Shown here in pieces: positions 28,365 through 37,674 of a stretch of DNA of 64,000 bases; position 1 is the stretch's first letter; each line of letters opens with the position of its first letter. The stretch comes from Shewanella eurypsychrophilus (lineage in GTDB: Bacteria > Pseudomonadota > Gammaproteobacteria > Enterobacterales > Shewanellaceae): positions 62,001 to 126,000 of the forward strand of contig NZ_CP045503.2 of assembly GCF_007004545.3 (NCBI RefSeq), written 5' to 3'. The position numbers were made by a program, and so were the translations under genes. The notes under the pieces are model-generated. The model saw only the letters and a list, made by a program, of their open reading frames with translations. It had not been told where the DNA came from and ran no database searches.

Positions 28365-29666
28365 TTATGCTGCTTTGCCTAGTGCCTGCTCTATATCAAT
28401 TCCCTCTTCTCTCATTTGAGCTAGCTTGTATCTCAAGGCTCTGGTTGTCATACCAAGTGCTTGGGCACTTTGACTACGATGACCATTGAACTTTCTCAGG
28501 GTATCTAAGATATATTGGAACTCTGCGTGTTTCTTTGAGGCTTTTAAGCCATGTTCACTCTGAACTCGAGTCTCATCGATAAGGCTGGGCTCTCCCTCAA
28601 TACCGAGCTCACAAGCTTGAAGTGCTTGCCCTCTTCTCATGACTAATGCTCTTTGAATGGTATTTTCAAGCTCTCGAACGTTACCCGGCCAGCAGTGAGA
28701 GGTCAGTCGTAGCTTAGCTTGATCACTGAAATAGCAAGATTGCCCGGCTGCCAGATGTTGGTATCTCAGTAAGAAATGAGCAGCTAAGGGCAGAATATCT
28801 TCGCGCCGCTCTCTAAGTGGCAATATTTTCAGTGGGAGCACATCGAGTCGATAGAAAAGGTCTTCTCGGAAATTACCGGATTGAACCGCTTTCCTCAGAT
28901 CTCGATTGGTTGAGGCTATAATACGAATATCCAGAGGAATAGACTTGTGACCCCCTAAACGTTCAACTTCTCTCTCCTGTAAGACCCTTAGCAGTTTCGC
29001 TTGTACCTGTACTGGCATCTCGCCAATCTCATCGAGTAGTAGTGTGCCGCCATTAGCGAGTTCAAACTTTCCAGGTTGATCGCTAGTGGCTCCGGTAAAT
29101 GCGCCCTTGTTATGGCCAAATAAAATTGACTCAAGAATACTCTCAGGAATTGCCGCGCAGTTGACTGCGATAAACGGCTTGGTTGCGCGTGTAGAGTGGC
29201 GGTGAATATAGCGAGCTAAAGGCTCTTTCCCTGTGCCGCTTTCGCCAGTTAGCAATACGGTAGCTTCTGTTGATGCTGCTCTGTGGGCAAGCATCATGAG
29301 TTGGCGACTGACAGGAGAGACAACGACCAGCTCGGCATCGGGCTGCTCTAAGCGCCTAAGTCTTTGAACAAGTGAACAGATCTGTTCGTTTTCAAGAGGG
29401 AGCAGCAAATAGTCTTGTACACCTAACTGCATCGCTGTGGTTGCTAGCTCAGTCTGTTCCGGTGCTAACAAAGCAACCTGATTTTTCCCGGGAAATTGAG
29501 ACAACCTAGCTGCAACCTCTGAGTTTTTACAATCAGATAGATTAATCATGGTAAGCCAGGGAGTGGTGGCACCTGAGTGCCAAGTCTCAAAACCCAGAAG
29601 TGTTAATTGAGAGAGACTGTTGTCAGGTAGGCTTGCATCGATCAGCCTGATGTCATTAGAAGTCAT
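28365..29666 (-). CDS. lafK: Sigma-54-dependent lateral flagellar activator LafK
   Basis: The protein has 433 residues. The N-terminal ~120 residues resemble a degenerate receiver. The AAA+ domain has Walker A GESGTGKEPLARYIH, the sigma-54 contact loop GAFTGA, and Walker B GGTLLLDEIGEMP. A Fis-type helix-turn-helix ends it (NGHRSQSAQALGMTTRALRYK). LafK in Vibrio switches on the early lateral operons with RpoN. It starts inside the end of motY (11-base overlap), with AGAGG upstream. Confidence 0.95.
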   Translation of the reverse strand: MTSNDIRLIDASLPDNSLSQLTLLGFETWHSGATTPWLTMINLSDCKNSEVAARLSQFPGKNQVALLAPEQTELATTAMQLGVQDYLLLPLENEQICSLVQRLRRLEQPDAELVVVSPVSRQLMMLAHRAASTEATVLLTGESGTGKEPLARYIHRHSTRATKPFIAVNCAAIPESILESILFGHNKGAFTGATSDQPGKFELANGGTLLLDEIGEMPVQVQAKLLRVLQEREVERLGGHKSIPLDIRIIASTNRDLRKAVQSGNFREDLFYRLDVLPLKILPLRERREDILPLAAHFLLRYQHLAAGQSCYFSDQAKLRLTSHCWPGNVRELENTIQRALVMRRGQALQACELGIEGEPSLIDETRVQSEHGLKASKKHAEFQYILDTLRKFNGHRSQSAQALGMTTRALRYKLAQMREEGIDIEQALGKAA

Positions 29667-30567
29667 GCTTAACCTCTTTCTTGGACTCTGCCACTCTGTT
29701 TGGGGATGACTTGATCAGGCGTACTGTGACACGTCGATTTTTGTCTCTACCTGCTAGGGTATTATTTGACACATTTGGAGAGCGAGCACCATGGTGACGA
29801 GGCTGGACCATTTTCACTGAGAGCCCCATCTCTACAAGTCGAGAAGCAACTTCATCGGCCCTGTCCTTACTTAACACTAGGTTAGCTAACCGCTCACCTG
29901 TGTTATCGGAGTGGGCATCAACCAGTATTTGGGTAATTGATGGATCGGCATGAACGTATCTCACTATCGCATTGAGATCGGCTTCATGGTTAACCGTTAC
30001 CTGGCTGGAACCCGATGGAAAATAGAGGTCAACACGACGTACATATGAAAACGGTTTAGGTAAGAGTTGGTATCTGCATTGTTTAAATTTATTAGCGACC
30101 TGTTTGGTGTTAACTGGGCTGCTATTCACTTGATAACTATGTCCGTGTTCTGTGTTGATCTCTGTTTGCCAAGCTAACCCTTGTTCAAGGGCTTCTAAAA
30201 ATGGATCTATATTTAGCTGGCTGGTGGCTTTGTTCCCATGCCAGAGCAACTTAGCTTCAGCAAAAATAGTATCACCTGTGCTCTTCCACGAAGGTGATAC
30301 TACGTGAAAATCTGTGGTGATCCCGTCGGCGTCTAGCCAGTCTGCGTTAAGCTCAATGCTCAGCTTTTCGCCTGGAAGCGCTTTCAATTTTATGTTCCCG
30401 AATCCATCGATATTATGTTCTATCTGACAAGAGAATAGATCCCCTTCAAAGCTCCAATGGGCTTGCTCAAATGGTGTTTGATAGCGAGTAGTATTTGCTA
30501 TTGCACTATTAGAAATGACAAGGCTAATCAACAGTGAAAAGATTAATATATGAGCTGGTGATTTCAA
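29656..30567 (-). CDS. motY: Lateral MotY-like T-ring/stator anchoring protein
   Basis: The protein has 303 residues from a TTG at 30567, preceded by AAGGGA; this start yields a normal signal peptide (KSPAHILIFSLLISLVISNS, then AIA). An upstream ATG at 30684 lacks a ribosome site and adds 39 polar residues. The C-terminal OmpA-like domain contains VDLYFPSGSSQV, DAHSDNTGERLANLVLSKDRA and RDKNRRVTVRL. MotY proteins anchor stators around the motor. It is followed by lafK. Confidence 0.88.
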   Translation of the reverse strand: MKSPAHILIFSLLISLVISNSAIANTTRYQTPFEQAHWSFEGDLFSCQIEHNIDGFGNIKLKALPGEKLSIELNADWLDADGITTDFHVVSPSWKSTGDTIFAEAKLLWHGNKATSQLNIDPFLEALEQGLAWQTEINTEHGHSYQVNSSPVNTKQVANKFKQCRYQLLPKPFSYVRRVDLYFPSGSSQVTVNHEADLNAIVRYVHADPSITQILVDAHSDNTGERLANLVLSKDRADEVASRLVEMGLSVKMVQPRHHGARSPNVSNNTLAGRDKNRRVTVRLIKSSPNRVAESKKEVKHDF

Positions 30568-31163
30568 TGAATGTACTTCCCTTAATTTACATAACTTAAC
30601 GTTATTAAATATTTGAGCTTTTGTTTTTGTGTATTGTTTGAGTGAGTTTTTTTTGGAGTTCGATTGCGGGCTATAATTAAACATTAATAAAAGGATATGT
30701 AAAATGTTTTTTGATATTTATTTATTTTGTGATAACTGGCTAATTGAAATAATAATGTTTTAAGTGATACGTTTTAAATATATTTTTCAATGTTTGATAT
30801 ATTGGCTGGATTGAGGTTATATTATCTAGCTTGATTTGAAAGCAATTGAAACATATTGATGCAATAACCATCACCTGCATAACTAGTTGAATTTAATTGT
30901 TATTTTTAGATGGTAATTGTCTTTTTGTTTTTTCTTAAATTTAAATTAAAAATTAATTAAAGAAATTTGAATTCCGGTCGCTTTATATGTTTTTTTGCTC
31001 ATTAAAATTCGTCGACACACTTTAATATACAGTTGTCTTGATGGTTTTATTTCTTTATTTAAGTTAAGCGCTATTAAGCGTCATATTTATGGCGATAGTC
31101 ATTTTTCTAAATTTATAATGTTAAATATATTGTATTTCACTATTTTTATATTGGTTGGTCAAA
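30568..31163. other. AT-rich divergent region between motY and fliM
   Basis: About 600 bases, very AT-rich compared with the flanks. It must hold the divergent promoters of motY-lafK-fliE and of fliMNPQR-flhBA. I found no convincing sigma-54 or sigma-70 match and no credible gene; a 66-codon frame at 30995-31195 runs into fliM and looks spurious. Confidence 0.5.
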
Positions 31164-32045
31164 ATGAAAACAACTTCGAAGGCAAGGTTACTTAAGTTTA
31201 GTCAGTGTAAAAAAGTGAGACCTGTTGCTTTAATTCAGGAGAAACTTGCGAGAAGCCGCTTATTGATACAAGTTGAATCTTGTCAGAGAACAGTTTTAGA
31301 TGCGGTTAATTGTGTGCTTAACCCAATAATTCGCCAAGGTCACCATGCTTTAACCTGCATTTCACAGCAAGAAGCCAGCGTGCCCATTGAGCCTGATGGA
31401 AATCATGCTTGGTTTAGACTTAGTTACCATGGAACTATGTTGGCTTGGTGGCGAATTGACCGCTGTACATTAGATCAATTAGCGAGTGGTTACTACGGCA
31501 GTTTAGCCACCCCACTCAAGTCGCCACTGCGTTCACCTAGTCAGTCAGAGTTTAGATTAGCTAGAAAGCTGATGCTTGCAGCCCTCAAGGTGCTACCAAT
31601 TACCGAATTGGATGAGGAGGCGATAGAATTAGAACTCGTTTTCAATAACACGCCCATTGATGCACCTATTAATTGGTCTCTCAGTTTTGCCAAAGGGCAG
31701 ATGACTTCGCCAATTCTATTCTGCATGACTGAGTATCTGCTTGGACTCATGTCTGAGCAGCCTAGCCTCTATCTGGCTACCCCCGAACTCTCTGAACAAT
31801 TGGCGCAAAGGCTAAAACAGATCCCACTGAAAATTTCACTCGAGCTTGGACGGCAAAACACGCCTGTCAACTCACTTAATGGATTGAAAGTAGGAGATGT
31901 TCTGCCAATGAATCTTCATTCTAGATGCCCGGTGACCGTTGGGAAAAGGCCACTTTTTTATGCTGCAGTGCATACCCATGAGGGGCAGATGGTGGCTAAG
32001 TTAACCCAAGATATTTTCGTGCAAGATGATGGCGGTAGCTGCTGA
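31164..32045 (+). CDS. fliM: Lateral motor switch protein FliM
   Basis: The protein has 293 residues from the ATG at 31164 (a TTG nine bases earlier is possible); polar FliM is usually about 340. The C-terminal SpoA-like part has IPLKISLELGRQNTPVN and LKVGDVLPMNLHSRCPVTVG. The N-terminus (MKTTSKARLLKFSQCKKVRP) lacks the conserved EIDALL CheY-binding motif. It is divergent overall. First gene of the rightward export/switch unit. Confidence 0.85.
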   Translation: MKTTSKARLLKFSQCKKVRPVALIQEKLARSRLLIQVESCQRTVLDAVNCVLNPIIRQGHHALTCISQQEASVPIEPDGNHAWFRLSYHGTMLAWWRIDRCTLDQLASGYYGSLATPLKSPLRSPSQSEFRLARKLMLAALKVLPITELDEEAIELELVFNNTPIDAPINWSLSFAKGQMTSPILFCMTEYLLGLMSEQPSLYLATPELSEQLAQRLKQIPLKISLELGRQNTPVNSLNGLKVGDVLPMNLHSRCPVTVGKRPLFYAAVHTHEGQMVAKLTQDIFVQDDGGSC

Positions 32046-32127: not shown

Positions 32128-32484
32128 ATGTCAGAACAAACACTGCTTCAAGATGAAGATTTTTTATTGGATGACAACCTGTTTGATGAGGGGTTTAAGG
32201 AAGAGGAGATTGTAAAGGCTAAGCCAATTAAAGATATCTCGTTTTTTCATCAGTTGCCTGTTCAAGTTACCTTGGAACTAGCTAGCGCTGAGATGTCATT
32301 AGGCGAGCTGTCGCGAATGGGAGAGGGAGATGTTGTTGCACTCGATCGTATGGTCGGAGAGCCTTTAGATATTCGGGTGAATGGTGCGCTGCTTGGAAGG
32401 GGGGAGGTCGTTGAAGTTAATGGCCGTTATGGTGTCCGCCTGCTAGAGGTCGAAGCGATCAGTCTTACCGGAGCGAATGACTGA
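32128..32484 (+). CDS. fliN: Lateral motor switch protein FliN
   Basis: The protein has 118 residues. An acidic N-terminus is followed by the SpoA domain: LPVQVTLELASAEMSLGELS, EGDVVALDRMVGEPLDIRVN and RGEVVEVNGRYGVRL. It forms the C-ring with FliM. AAGGAA precedes the ATG. Confidence 0.95.
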   Translation: MSEQTLLQDEDFLLDDNLFDEGFKEEEIVKAKPIKDISFFHQLPVQVTLELASAEMSLGELSRMGEGDVVALDRMVGEPLDIRVNGALLGRGEVVEVNGRYGVRLLEVEAISLTGAND

Positions 32485-33214
32485 TATGTTCCGTGCCTTG
32501 CTGCTTATTGCATTACTTTTTGTCCCAGCGGCTTTTGCCAATGATGGGCTTACACTGTTCACCCTTAATGATGGCGATCAGAGTCAGACTGTCAATATCA
32601 AGCTAGAGATACTGGCGCTAATGACAGTGCTCAGTTTCTTACCTGCTTTACTGATGATGCTAACCAGCTTTACTCGAATTATTATCGTGTTGGGTATTTT
32701 ACGTCAGGCGCTTGGTTTGCAGCAGAGCCCGCCAAATAAGGTGCTAGTGGGACTCACCTTAGTGCTCACCATTTTCATCATGAGACCGGTTGGTCAAGAC
32801 ATCTATGACCAGGCTTATCTTCCTTACGACCAAGGAGTGATAGAGCTCAATGAGGCAGTTGCCATTGGCGAGAAGCCACTGAGAAAGTTCATGCTGGCAC
32901 AAACTCGTGAGACAGATCTTGAGCAGATGCTAAAAATAGCCGATGAGCCAGTGACCTTAACTGCCGATGAGGTGCCCTTCTTTGTACTTATGCCAGCGTT
33001 TGTTTTAAGCGAGCTTAAAACGGCATTCCAGATTGGCTTTTTACTCTTCTTACCATTCTTGGTGATCGACTTAGTGGTAGCCAGTGTGTTGATGTCTATG
33101 GGAATGATGATGTTATCGCCCTTGATTATCTCTTTGCCGTTCAAATTGATGGTATTTGTGCTTGTTGATGGCTGGTCTATGACGGTAGGCACTTTAGTGT
33201 CTAGCTTTGGTTAG
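32477..33214 (+). CDS. fliP: Lateral flagellar export gate protein FliP
   Basis: The protein has 245 residues with a cleavable signal (FRALLLIALLFVPAAFA). Family motifs include LTSFTRIIIVLGILRQALGL, QQSPPNKVLVGLTLVLTIFI and FLLFLPFLVIDLVVASVLMS. It overlaps fliN by eight bases. FliP with FliQ and FliR forms the export channel. No fliO precedes it. Confidence 0.96.
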   Translation: MTDMFRALLLIALLFVPAAFANDGLTLFTLNDGDQSQTVNIKLEILALMTVLSFLPALLMMLTSFTRIIIVLGILRQALGLQQSPPNKVLVGLTLVLTIFIMRPVGQDIYDQAYLPYDQGVIELNEAVAIGEKPLRKFMLAQTRETDLEQMLKIADEPVTLTADEVPFFVLMPAFVLSELKTAFQIGFLLFLPFLVIDLVVASVLMSMGMMMLSPLIISLPFKLMVFVLVDGWSMTVGTLVSSFG

Positions 33215-33251
33215 CTGGCGTTCTTGCTGCCTCTTTAACGTGTTAGGTGAA

Positions 33252-33395
33252 ATGATGGAAATATTAAGAAAGCTAGGGAATGAGTTCAGTGTGAGTGACA
33301 TCATCTATTTGATCTTTTGTCTGCTGAGTTGCGTGATCGTTGCCTTCAATGGCTGGGAGTTTATCATCAGCTCAGTGACTGGGATTTTAAGGTAG
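33252..33395 (+). CDS. 47-residue single-helix membrane ORF between fliP and fliQ
   Basis: The ATG at 33252 has AGGTGA just upstream, and the stop is four bases before the fliQ ATG. The peptide begins MMEILRKLGNEFSVSDII and has one membrane helix (YLIFCLLSCVIVAFNGW) and a short tail ending GILR. It does not resemble FliQ, which follows intact. FliO, a small single-helix FliP helper, is missing from the cluster, so a FliO-like role is a tempting inference, not shown by similarity. Confidence 0.6.
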   Translation: MMEILRKLGNEFSVSDIIYLIFCLLSCVIVAFNGWEFIISSVTGILR

Positions 33396-33399
33396 AGAT

Positions 33400-33669
33400 A
33401 TGGATGTCAATGAACTGACCTCTCTGTTTGCCGATGCGATATTTTTAGTGGTCTCTATGGTGGCGGTACTTGTGGTGCCAAGCTTGTTAGTGGGTTTATT
33501 GATTGCTGTCTTTCAAGCGGCGACTCAGGTCAATGAACAGACGTTAAGTTTCTTGCCTAGATTAGTGCTTACATTATTGATGGTGCTGTTTGCAGGTCCC
33601 TGGATTTTGCAGCAGATTTCCGATCTGTTTAACCGACTGTTTATGAACATTCCCCATATTATTGGTTAG
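33400..33669 (+). CDS. fliQ: Lateral flagellar export gate protein FliQ
   Basis: The protein has 89 residues, the exact family length, with two membrane helices. LLIAVFQAATQVNEQTLSFL and the terminal NIPHIIG are FliQ hallmarks. AAGGTAGAG precedes the ATG. Confidence 0.96.
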   Translation: MDVNELTSLFADAIFLVVSMVAVLVVPSLLVGLLIAVFQAATQVNEQTLSFLPRLVLTLLMVLFAGPWILQQISDLFNRLFMNIPHIIG

Positions 33670-33671
33670 CC

Positions 33672-34451
33672 ATGCTCTCTCTTACTTCCGTCCAGATAAG
33701 TAGTTTTATCGGTACCTTTTGGTGGCCATTCTGCCGCATTATGGGGGCATTTATTGTGATGCCTTTTTTGAGTAGCTCCTATATTCCTGCCATGGTGAGA
33801 ATATTACTCGCGGTATTAATCTCTGCTCTGATCGCGCCTATGTTACCCGCGGTTCCCTCTGTGGACGCCATCTCTATTGCAGCGCTTTTCATTGCCATAG
33901 AGCAGTTACTAATTGGTTTTATGCTAGCCATGTTTCTCTACATCTTAATTCATGTGATGACCCTGTTCGGTGCCATGATGTCGATGCAGATGGGGCTAGC
34001 AATGGCGATTATGAATGATCCTGCAAATGGTAGCTCTAACCCTATTCTAAGTCAGTGGTTTCTACTTTATGGGACGCTGTTATTTTTATCTTTGGATGGT
34101 CATCTGGTTGCGCTGGGGATCATAGTAGATAGCTTCAGATTATGGCCGATAGGTACGGGGGTTTTTGATCTGCCTCTTATGGGCTTAGTGGCTCGTTATG
34201 CCTGGTTGTTTGCGTCGGCATTTATGCTAGCAATACCTGCAATTCTTGCCATGTTAATGGTCAATATTACCTTTGGTGTATTGAGCCGGGCTGCACCCTC
34301 CTTAAACGTATTTGCCTTAGGTTTTCCTATGTCTATGCTGATGGGGTTGCTGTGCGTATTCTTCTCATTTAGTGGCTTACCGACCCGCTATAGCGATCTG
34401 TGTTTGGATGCGCTTTCTGCCATGTATCAGTTTATTGGCGGGATCACATGA
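33672..34451 (+). CDS. fliR: Lateral flagellar export gate protein FliR
   Basis: The protein has 259 residues with several membrane helices. FWWPFCRIMGAFIVMPFL, the MQMGLAMAIMNDPANGSSNP loop and LSRAAPSLNVFALGFPMSML are typical of FliR. It begins two bases after fliQ and overlaps flhB by four. Confidence 0.95.
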   Translation: MLSLTSVQISSFIGTFWWPFCRIMGAFIVMPFLSSSYIPAMVRILLAVLISALIAPMLPAVPSVDAISIAALFIAIEQLLIGFMLAMFLYILIHVMTLFGAMMSMQMGLAMAIMNDPANGSSNPILSQWFLLYGTLLFLSLDGHLVALGIIVDSFRLWPIGTGVFDLPLMGLVARYAWLFASAFMLAIPAILAMLMVNITFGVLSRAAPSLNVFALGFPMSMLMGLLCVFFSFSGLPTRYSDLCLDALSAMYQFIGGIT

Positions 34452-35581
34452 GTAATAAAGACTCTGGGCAGAGTAAGACCGAGAAGGCGACGCCACAAAA
34501 GTTAAAAAAAGCGAGAGATGAGGGACAGGTTCCTCGCTCAAAAGATCTGGCTTCTACTGCGCTTATTATTGGTTGTTCTCTGATGCTGTTCTTGAGTGCC
34601 GATTGGTTTGCTGCGCGAGTCGCTCAGTTGACGCGATTCAATATGTCTATTACCAAAGAGGAGTTAGATCGTCCCGGTATGATGCTAGAGCACCTTGGCA
34701 CCTCGCTGGTTGAGATGCTCAATATTCTAGGCCCCTTGTTCATCATGGTTGCCATCATTGCCATGATAGCGGGTGCAATGCCGGGTGGACCGGTATTTAG
34801 TTTCAAAAATGCTCAGTTTAAATATAGCCGTATCGATCCAATTGCTGGAATAGGGCGTATGTTCTCGGTTAAGTCACTGGTTGAACTGATTAAGTCTATT
34901 CTTAAAATCACTTTACTTATCAGCATCATGTTTGTTTTTCTAGAAACTAACTTGCAGACATTACTCACCTACAACCAGCTGCCTATTGATGAGGCGGTCA
35001 GTAATGGAATTAATATGCTCGCAGAAGGTGTGCTTTACCTAGGTCTGGGTTTATTGGTGATCACATTTATCGATGTGCCATACCAATACTGGCATCACCA
35101 TAAAGAGCTTAGAATGTCGCGGCAGGATGTTAAAGATGAACATAAACAACAAGATGGTAAGCCAGAGGTTAAAGCTAAAATCCGTCAGTTACAGCAACGT
35201 ATGGGCCGTTCTAGAGCTGAAATTGCAGTGCCGCAGGCAGACGTTTTAATCGTTAATCCAACACATTATGCGGTAGCACTTAAATATGATGTTGAAAAGG
35301 CGGACGCTCCCTATGTGTTGACCAAGGGGGCTGATGATGTTGCCCTTTATATGCGCCAAATAGCTCAGCGAAATGACATTGAAGTCATAGAGTTGCCACC
35401 TCTTACCCGAGCTATCTACTATTCAACCAAAGTTGAACAGCAGATCCCTGCGGCGCTATTTATCGCTATCGCCCATGTATTGAGTTATGTGTTGCAGATA
35501 AAGGCTGCTAGAGAGGGTAAGAAGAAAAGACCTGATCCATTACCAAACTTTTTTATTCCGAAACATTTGAGACACGATTAA
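34448..35581 (+). CDS. flhB: Lateral export specificity switch protein FlhB
   Basis: The protein has 377 residues from the ATG at 34448, overlapping the fliR stop (ATGA). The N-terminus has KTEKATPQKLKKARDEGQVP; four membrane helices follow. The cytoplasmic domain has the self-cleaving NPTH motif in DVLIVNPTHYAVALKYD. It interacts with LafE to switch from hook to filament export. Confidence 0.96.
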   Translation: MSNKDSGQSKTEKATPQKLKKARDEGQVPRSKDLASTALIIGCSLMLFLSADWFAARVAQLTRFNMSITKEELDRPGMMLEHLGTSLVEMLNILGPLFIMVAIIAMIAGAMPGGPVFSFKNAQFKYSRIDPIAGIGRMFSVKSLVELIKSILKITLLISIMFVFLETNLQTLLTYNQLPIDEAVSNGINMLAEGVLYLGLGLLVITFIDVPYQYWHHHKELRMSRQDVKDEHKQQDGKPEVKAKIRQLQQRMGRSRAEIAVPQADVLIVNPTHYAVALKYDVEKADAPYVLTKGADDVALYMRQIAQRNDIEVIELPPLTRAIYYSTKVEQQIPAALFIAIAHVLSYVLQIKAAREGKKKRPDPLPNFFIPKHLRHD

Positions 35582-35592
35582 AGGTACTTCCC

Positions 35593-37674
35593 ATGAACTG
35601 GTTATCTCGTACGTTTGCTGGAAATCGTAGCTATATAGGTATACCTATCATGCTACTGACTATTCTTGCCATGATCATACTTCCACTGCCACCTTGGCTG
35701 TTGGATATTTTATTTACTTTCAATATTGTTTTAGCTGTGATGGTTTTGCTGGTGGCGGTTTCTATCAGGCGGCCTTTAGAGTTCTCAGTGTTTCCAACTG
35801 TGCTGCTATTGGCAACGCTGATGCGGTTAACCCTAAACGTCGCCTCAACCCGAGTTGTTCTGATTGAGGGACATCAGGGAGGAGATGCTGCAGGTCGTGT
35901 GATCCAAGCGTTTGGTGAAGTGGTTATCGATGGCAATTATGTGGTCGGTGCGGTGATATTTCTCATCTTGATGATCATTAACTTTGTGGTTATCACTAAA
36001 GGGGGTGAGCGCATCTCCGAGGTATCGGCTCGCTTTACACTCGATGCTTTACCCGGTAAGCAGATGGCTATCGATGCAGATCTTAATGCTGGGGTGCTAA
36101 GCCAAGATCAGGCCAGGCTTCGCCGTCAGGAAGTGGCTAGAGAAGCTGATTTCTATGGCTCGATGGATGGCGCCTCTAAGTTTGTTCGTGGTGATGCCAT
36201 TGCTGGCATATTGATCTTGGCGATCAATATTCTCGGTGGTATTGCCATTGGCGTGTTTATGCATGATTTAAGCGCAGGGGAGGCCTTTAAGACCTATGCA
36301 TTGTTGACGATTGGTGATGGCTTAGTTGCCCAGATCCCCTCTTTGTTACTCGCAACTGCTGCCGCAATTATTGTCACCCGTGTCTCCGATGCGGAGGAGA
36401 TGCCGGCTCAACTTAGTAAGCAGTTATTAGCAAACCCAAGAACCTTAGCCACAGCCTCTGTGATCATGATGATCCTTGGTATAGTCCCAGGGATGCCAGC
36501 CTTGGTATTTCTCTCCTTTGCTGCGGTTTTGGGCTTTTCTGCCTGGAAGTTGAGCCAACGAGTAGAGGTGCTACCGGAAGACAAGGTTGAAGATAAACTT
36601 GAAAAAAGTCTCTCCGAGACATCGGCACCCAGCTGGGAAGCGTTGCCATTTACTGACCTTATCGAAGTAAGGCTCGGCTATCGCCTCGTTCACTTAGTGG
36701 AGCGTAGCAAAGGGGCTGAGCTACAGAAGCGACTAACAGGTATTAGGCGGACCTTATCTGAACAAGCGGGTTTTCTGTTATCTGAGGTGCGAGTGCGCGA
36801 CAACTTAGCCTTGGCGCCGAATGCTTATCAGATAAACTTAATGGGTAACCCAGTTGTAACGGCTGAACTTGAGCCTGAAAAGTTGATGGCGATTAAGAGT
36901 GGGCCCGTTTTTGGTGACATTGATGGCATTATCACTAAGGAACCAGCCTATCAGATGGACGCACTGTGGATTGAACCTGACTCAAAGGCTAAAGCACTAA
37001 ATTTAGGTTATTCAGTTGTCGATAATGCGACTGTAATAGCAACTCATGTGAGCAAGCTTATTCGAGAGTCATTGCCGGATATGTTACAGCACGATGATGT
37101 GATGGCGCTGAGTGACCGCTTAGCGAAACAGTCGCCCAAGCTAGCTGAGTCTCTATCGACAGCCTTAACGCCAATTCAACAGCTCAAGGTCTATCGATTA
37201 TTGCTGAAGGAGCAGGTGTCTCTTAAAGACATTCGTACCATAGCGACGACTTTACTTGATTGCAGTGAAAATAGTAAAGATCCAGTATTGTTAGCAGCAG
37301 ATGTGCGTTGTGCGCTGCGGAGCAGTATTTTGCACACCATAGCGGGTCAGTCGCAACAGTTGAATGTATTGACCTTAGCGCCAGAGCTTGAACAGACCTT
37401 GATGACGGCGCTTAATCAGTCTCAACAACAGGGTAAGGTGTCACTGGATAGCTTTCCTGTTGAACCTCAGCTGCTTGCTCAGCTACAGCAGAAGATGCCA
37501 CTGTTATTAGCTCAGGCAAAAGAGCAAGGCCATAGCCCTATGTTGTTAGTTTCGCCTCAATTAAGACCCATTCTAGCTAGATATGCCTTGGCTTTCGCAA
37601 GAGGCTTACATGTACTTTCCTATAATGAGATCCCTGAAAGTCGAGAGCTAATGGTGGCAGGACAGTTAGGCTAG
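35593..37674 (+). CDS. flhA: Lateral flagellar export protein FlhA
   Basis: The protein has 693 residues, normal for FlhA. The FHIPEP signature is visible around RPLEFSVFPTVLLLATLMR. About eight membrane helices precede the cytoplasmic domain, which docks chaperone-substrate complexes. It closes the fliM-flhA unit and is followed by a terminator. Confidence 0.97.
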   Translation: MNWLSRTFAGNRSYIGIPIMLLTILAMIILPLPPWLLDILFTFNIVLAVMVLLVAVSIRRPLEFSVFPTVLLLATLMRLTLNVASTRVVLIEGHQGGDAAGRVIQAFGEVVIDGNYVVGAVIFLILMIINFVVITKGGERISEVSARFTLDALPGKQMAIDADLNAGVLSQDQARLRRQEVAREADFYGSMDGASKFVRGDAIAGILILAINILGGIAIGVFMHDLSAGEAFKTYALLTIGDGLVAQIPSLLLATAAAIIVTRVSDAEEMPAQLSKQLLANPRTLATASVIMMILGIVPGMPALVFLSFAAVLGFSAWKLSQRVEVLPEDKVEDKLEKSLSETSAPSWEALPFTDLIEVRLGYRLVHLVERSKGAELQKRLTGIRRTLSEQAGFLLSEVRVRDNLALAPNAYQINLMGNPVVTAELEPEKLMAIKSGPVFGDIDGIITKEPAYQMDALWIEPDSKAKALNLGYSVVDNATVIATHVSKLIRESLPDMLQHDDVMALSDRLAKQSPKLAESLSTALTPIQQLKVYRLLLKEQVSLKDIRTIATTLLDCSENSKDPVLLAADVRCALRSSILHTIAGQSQQLNVLTLAPELEQTLMTALNQSQQQGKVSLDSFPVEPQLLAQLQQKMPLLLAQAKEQGHSPMLLVSPQLRPILARYALAFARGLHVLSYNEIPESRELMVAGQLG

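Follow-up and report, generated by a model that had tools for sequence, protein, structure and literature searches.

A small gene in the lateral export-gate operon

What is the short open reading frame (ORF) lodged between fliP and fliQ in the lateral flagellar cluster of Shewanella eurypsychrophilus, and could it encode a part of the export gate? Few bacterial membrane machines are as conserved as the FliP-FliQ-FliR gate. A genus that, with no FliO, encodes a constrained additional membrane protein between fliP and fliQ would constitute a natural test of what gate assembly needs, and the same case bears on the birth of accessory gate subunits. In the window (the whole stretch of 64,000 nucleotides that was analyzed), the lateral export-gate operon runs in the order fliM, fliN, fliP, the microprotein ORF, fliQ, fliR, flhB and flhA, with the following features:

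31155..32045, + strand: lateral fliM (C-terminal PF01052 match; named from its position)
32128..32484, + strand: lateral fliN (PF01052), overlapping fliP by 8 nt
32477..33214, + strand: lateral fliP (PF00813, E 3e-79)
33113-33205, + strand: tail of fliP, the part of the window that the microprotein family profile matches best, self excluded (profile scan)
33245..33250, + strand: AGGTGA, ribosome-binding-like (sequence and family-wide Shine-Dalgarno (SD) excess)
33252..33395, + strand: membrane microprotein gene, 47 codons, TAG stop at 33393-33395 (ORF, homologues and constraint)
33294..33386, + strand: conserved core comprising D16, the membrane helix, V30, [ND]xW35 and the column seven residues after the tryptophan (W+7) (alignment and AF2 helices)
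33389..33392, + strand: AAGG within the final ORF codons, probable ribosome site of fliQ (from the sequence)
33400..33669, + strand: lateral fliQ (PF01313, E 2e-24)
33672..34451, + strand: lateral fliR (PF01311)
34445..35581, + strand: lateral flhB (PF01312)
35593..37674, + strand: lateral flhA (PF00771)

The flanking PF00813 and PF01313 matches bear out an earlier note on this DNA, which had placed an ORF, described there as unannotated, between fliP and fliQ and credited it with a good ribosome site and an end four bases ahead of fliQ. Both of the latter claims also hold: the TAG is followed by 4 nt and then by the fliQ ATG at 33400, and AGGTGA precedes the ORF, and upstream of 25 of the 29 family members described below there is an SD-like match 4 nt or more in length, as against 49% of shuffles. 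AGGTGA ends 1 nt before the ATG at 33252 and 4 nt before the ATG at 33255; since the latter is better spaced, it may be the true start, giving a protein of 46 aa. The AAGG in the last codons of the microprotein gene probably serves as the ribosome site of fliQ.

We surveyed the 52 best lateral-like FliP matches from 129 same-genus genomes (lower rows, including G129 and G047 (275 bits), and rows not listed were left out), choosing gap ORFs by a loose tryptophan motif in fliP-fliQ gaps of 120 nt or more. In 29 of these 52 lateral clusters the gap contains a homologous ORF of 44-49 aa, while the remaining 23 lack it and have a fliP-fliQ gap of either at most 5 nt (15/52) or 37-100 nt (8/52). A family profile search of the 129 genomes returned 29 matches below E 1e-14, in the same 29 places as the gap ORFs, and nothing beyond these gate-operon places below E 0.02. 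The alignment shows D16, V30 and W35 to be invariant; the W+7 column is leucine in 90% or more of the members, the window's own protein having valine (V42) there. The number of residues after the tryptophan is 12 in 24/29 members, 10 in four and 13 in one.

Substitution patterns point to selection on the encoded protein. Pooled over ten sister pairs, pN/pS of the microprotein gene is 0.31, with dN/dS below 0.39 in each pair, whereas its other reading frames give 0.95 and 1.57. None of 2000 neutral simulations was as low as the observed value; their mean was 0.74 and their minimum 0.48. Differences by codon position number 60/46/123, and the constraint is weaker in the first 18 alignment columns (0.47) than in the remainder (0.24). 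It is about 10-fold weaker than that of FliP: in the same pairs pN/pS is 0.027 for FliP and 0.026 for FliQ. Thus, neither an unconserved frame nor a lack of coding constraint, which the earlier note had named as grounds for giving the ORF up, was found. Purifying selection has preserved both the frame and the sequence, so that the ORF cannot be put down to chance. It is almost certainly a genuine coding gene, and we predict that it is translated in the cell.

Resemblance to the tail of FliP

The AF2 model of the microprotein (mean pLDDT 75.7, pTM 0.40) has helices at 3-11, 14-31 and 35-46, the last two separated by a break at 32-34, and thus predicts a single membrane-length helix with short helices on either side, in agreement with the one membrane helix previously read from the sequence. 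In an AF2 model of FliP, the tail was poorly predicted (pLDDT <50). Searches of Pfam, NCBIfam and PDB gave nothing convincing for the family, with a few single-member matches at a best E of 0.018; the sequence search of PDB chains gave no match at E<=10, and the microprotein matched neither PF00813 (FliP) nor PF01313 (FliQ). No such protein was apparent among the titles and abstract beginnings listed by searches of the open-licence literature.

We then scanned the family profile against 23,715 windows from those open frames of the 64 kb that are 60 aa or longer. Its best non-self match is the tail of the adjacent FliP, at 6.2 bits, with the next window, an unrelated one, at 5.9. The match is in register, having the same distance to the stop as in the microprotein. 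Only 3 of 500 column-shuffled profiles rank the FliP tail second or better (median rank 2328). With the four subclade profiles its ranks are 1, 2, 7 and 14, or 1, 2, 5 and 8 with heavier pseudocounts; the largest subclade alone places it 14th, or 8th with heavier pseudocounts. The family's V30 (W-5), W35 and L (W+7) correspond in letter and spacing to V228, W233 and L240 of FliP, and the conserved V228, D231, W233 and L240 of FliP align with V30, the [ND] of most members, W35 and the W+7 column. V-5, [ND]-2 and L+7 occur together in 26/29 members as against 2/421 tryptophan-containing control membrane windows (L043 excluded from the controls); the window's own microprotein has two of these three neighbors, with V rather than L at W+7. 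The two share the pattern V-x2-[ND]-x-W-x6-L with about 12 residues from the tryptophan to the stop (the window's FliP has 12, as do 24/29 microproteins). They also share their setting: the microprotein stop often lies 4 nt before fliQ, and in the ORF-less clusters fliP itself is often 4 nt from fliQ, the spacing seen in 17/29 microprotein genes. The microprotein differs from the FliP tail in being a separate protein under about 10-fold weaker constraint and without a Pfam match.

A precedent for such a tail copy is seen in a relative. In genome G057 (L239; also L008 1-460), the 3' end of fliR has been copied four times in tandem between fliR and flhB, in units of about 110 bp, each forming its own small ORF with overlapping stop and start; of 10 loci looked at, this array was seen at one. 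A single remnant-like FliR-tail copy was found in G161 (L241). As in the microprotein gene, the 3' tail of a gate gene stands in the same operon as an ORF of its own; however, the G057 mini-ORFs are near-identical repeats, occur in one genome and derive from FliR rather than FliP. A tail-copy origin is plausible, and the proposal that the microprotein was born as a duplicate of the fliP 3' end stays suggestive. As a separate observation, the same genome carries a 93-bp tandem repeat of 4.2 copies between fliP and the microprotein gene (L045 / L008 1757-2142).

We tentatively favor a microprotein of 46-47 aa that serves the FliP-FliQ-FliR gate as a dispensable accessory or as an assembly subunit, was gained once and derives from a copy of the fliP 3' end; the gate role is suggested by position, coupling and conservation. 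In this scenario, a tandem copy of the fliP 3' end, retaining the FliP stop and the 4-nt spacing to fliQ, would have acquired its own start in the lateral flagellar system of the genus, and would later have been lost in some lineages. Coupled translation would produce the microprotein next to FliP and FliQ; its single membrane helix would be followed by a break at [ND]xW and then by a short helix. The short helix might pack on the gate as the FliP tail does, during or after assembly. A comparable mode of action might be that of SwrB of Bacillus subtilis, described as a monotopic membrane protein with an accessory role in activating the flagellar export apparatus (PMC4526659); this is a different protein from other bacteria, adduced for how it may act and not as a relative. 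If the tail-copy origin is true, tandem duplication of a 3' end followed by reinitiation would be a simple way for a universal subunit to give rise to a new small protein. The broader proposition that export-gate operons give birth to subunits by copying their own 3' tails, with the microprotein as a detached, diverged terminal helix of FliP that would dock in the lateral FliP-FliQ-FliR ring or around it, and G057 as an early stage, is in our estimate rather doubtful.

Several points weigh against the favored reading. The FliP-tail or [ND]xW idea is post hoc, having been noticed after the sequences were read. hhalign gives P 0.0038 for the family against FliP, as compared to 0.0071 against the start of FliQ, and the unrelated window at 5.9 bits follows the FliP tail closely. 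[ND]xW accounts for most of the signal: with those three columns removed, 5% of the control membrane windows (including L043) score as high. The weak profile-profile score and the concentration of the likeness in [ND]xW favor instead a real microprotein that arose de novo or from elsewhere, is unrelated to FliP and resembles it by chance or convergence, with a role in the gate or elsewhere in the membrane. We regard this as a real possibility, if not the one we would choose, given that the tail of the adjacent gene ranks first among the 23,715 windows, in register with the stop, and that duplicates of the FliR tail exist in a relative.

FliO and other readings

The canonical place of fliO is between fliN and fliP. 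The earlier note held that the cluster lacks it, and it is indeed absent from that place: the 8-nt overlap of fliN and fliP leaves no room for fliO between them. The only FliO match of the genome (PF04347, E<=0.001) is in its other flagellar cluster, where a second set of FliN, FliP, FliQ and part of FliR is encoded as well. The absence of fliO from lateral systems is already published (PMC12403147; PMC2276687): the former states that FliO is often absent from them, naming Vibrio parahaemolyticus and Aeromonas hydrophila, and the latter describes the flagella II system of Shewanella piezotolerans, which has similar gene content, with a MotY-like gene in the cluster and no fliO. As a side observation, the lateral cluster of the window includes a sigma-54 type regulator adjoining a MotY-like protein (28365-30684, - strand).

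That the ORF might be FliO, or a functional replacement stabilizing FliP, is invited by its being a single-helix protein adjoining fliP in a cluster without fliO. FliO (PF04347), a flagellar gate chaperone, is likewise a small bitopic membrane protein encoded beside fliP, and according to the available portion of PMC5542435 it stabilizes FliP and aids assembly of the FliP-FliR core. However, none of the 29 members matches the FliO profile at E<=1, and hhalign gives a probability of 0.7% for the family against 68 FliO-position proteins. The latter were obtained, by position between fliN and fliP, from 68/81 loci (L001 and 80 relatives; these 80 were retained from among 578, none is titled Shewanella, and only L062 among them entered the gap measurement below). 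The FliO core, as outlined in the accessible text of PMC12403147, combines one TM helix with a cytoplasmic beta-sheet domain in lengths from about 80 aa; the microprotein has 44-49 aa, is modeled as all helix with no such domain, and its gene follows fliP rather than preceding it. Nor does it fill a gap peculiar to ORF-bearing clusters. fliN and fliP overlap in 51/52 genus clusters (the fliN-fliP gap of L162 is not measurable), and the usual place of fliO is just as empty of it in 22/23 ORF-less genus clusters and in 26/26 lateral-like loci outside the genus (L194-L218, L062), where the fliN-fliP gap is at most 63 nt and too small for fliO. Since its usual place has no fliO whether the ORF is there or not, no FliO replacement needs to be invoked. 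Thus, we reject identity with FliO and consider the wider FliO reading improbable; of the earlier proposal of a FliO-like or new export-gate helper, the second half is still plausible.

A role of the ORF as an RNA element or translational coupler setting the FliP:FliQ ratio, rather than as a protein, could account for gap-ORF stops lying exactly 4 nt (17/29) or 3 nt (3/29) before fliQ, but appears highly improbable in light of the amino acid constraint at a pS like that of fliP (0.346 and 0.335) and of the 9/29 members that end 12-69 nt before fliQ and are still conserved. There is an equally slim chance that this small hydrophobic peptide is a partial fliQ duplicate, as the weak hhalign match might hint (probability 5.4%, FliQ start only), or a toxic or stress peptide present by accident: the best FliQ window scores -0.4 (11th, self included) as against 6.2 for the FliP tail, on which grounds a half-duplicate of FliQ was dropped, and across the 129 genomes the family was seen in the gate operon alone.

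Distribution, gain and loss

Outside the genus, we found no convincing homologue in 369 genomes of the class (best match E 0.006) or 394 of the order (best E 6e-4, in G556 (L184)); the two samples overlap, and the order sample includes some genus members. The family therefore appears, in these samples, to be genus-restricted so far. In the same 26 lateral-like loci outside the genus, the fliP-fliQ gap is -4 to 12 nt in all 26; in the match list that includes L194, 24 rows have no locus, and of these the analysis covered G125 (as L161). On a tree of FliP, FliQ and FliR with 56 rows, presence of the ORF needs at least 5 changes, of which 3 are forced by strong branches, and the backbone is unresolved. 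As the ORF is missing from the outgroups, a single gain in the genus followed by two or more losses would be the natural reading. Separately, comparison of L042 with L043 shows common flanks in the fliP-fliQ gap with the ORF missing from L042, resembling a clean deletion.

In the 8 gapped ORF-less clusters, seven lateral genes showed no stop codons over their aligned parts; the ORF is therefore dispensable for keeping the system. The 23/52 lateral clusters without it also count against the favored gate-subunit reading, as does the lack of FliP-specific change in the loss lineages. A compensatory change of FliP after loss of the ORF was considered, as a first count was FliP-heavy in three loss lineages, and was rejected on seven genes: the other genes are in excess too (77:43, 75:39 and 155:76 in the main triples), and Fisher tests of FliP against the other lateral genes all gave values above 0.2. 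Hence, there is no support for a tight co-dependence of the microprotein with FliP.

Two further observations concern the lateral systems themselves. Among the loss lineages, the three closest to the window (L219-L221, the lineages of L042, L044 and L054) have lateral genes that jointly evolve faster than those of the ORF-keeping sisters, with FliM changing fastest and not FliP alone; the three other loss rows tested are less clear. In L194 (G831), from another genus of the same family, the lateral-like fliP has one TGA within the matched stretch, which perhaps marks a decaying lateral system.
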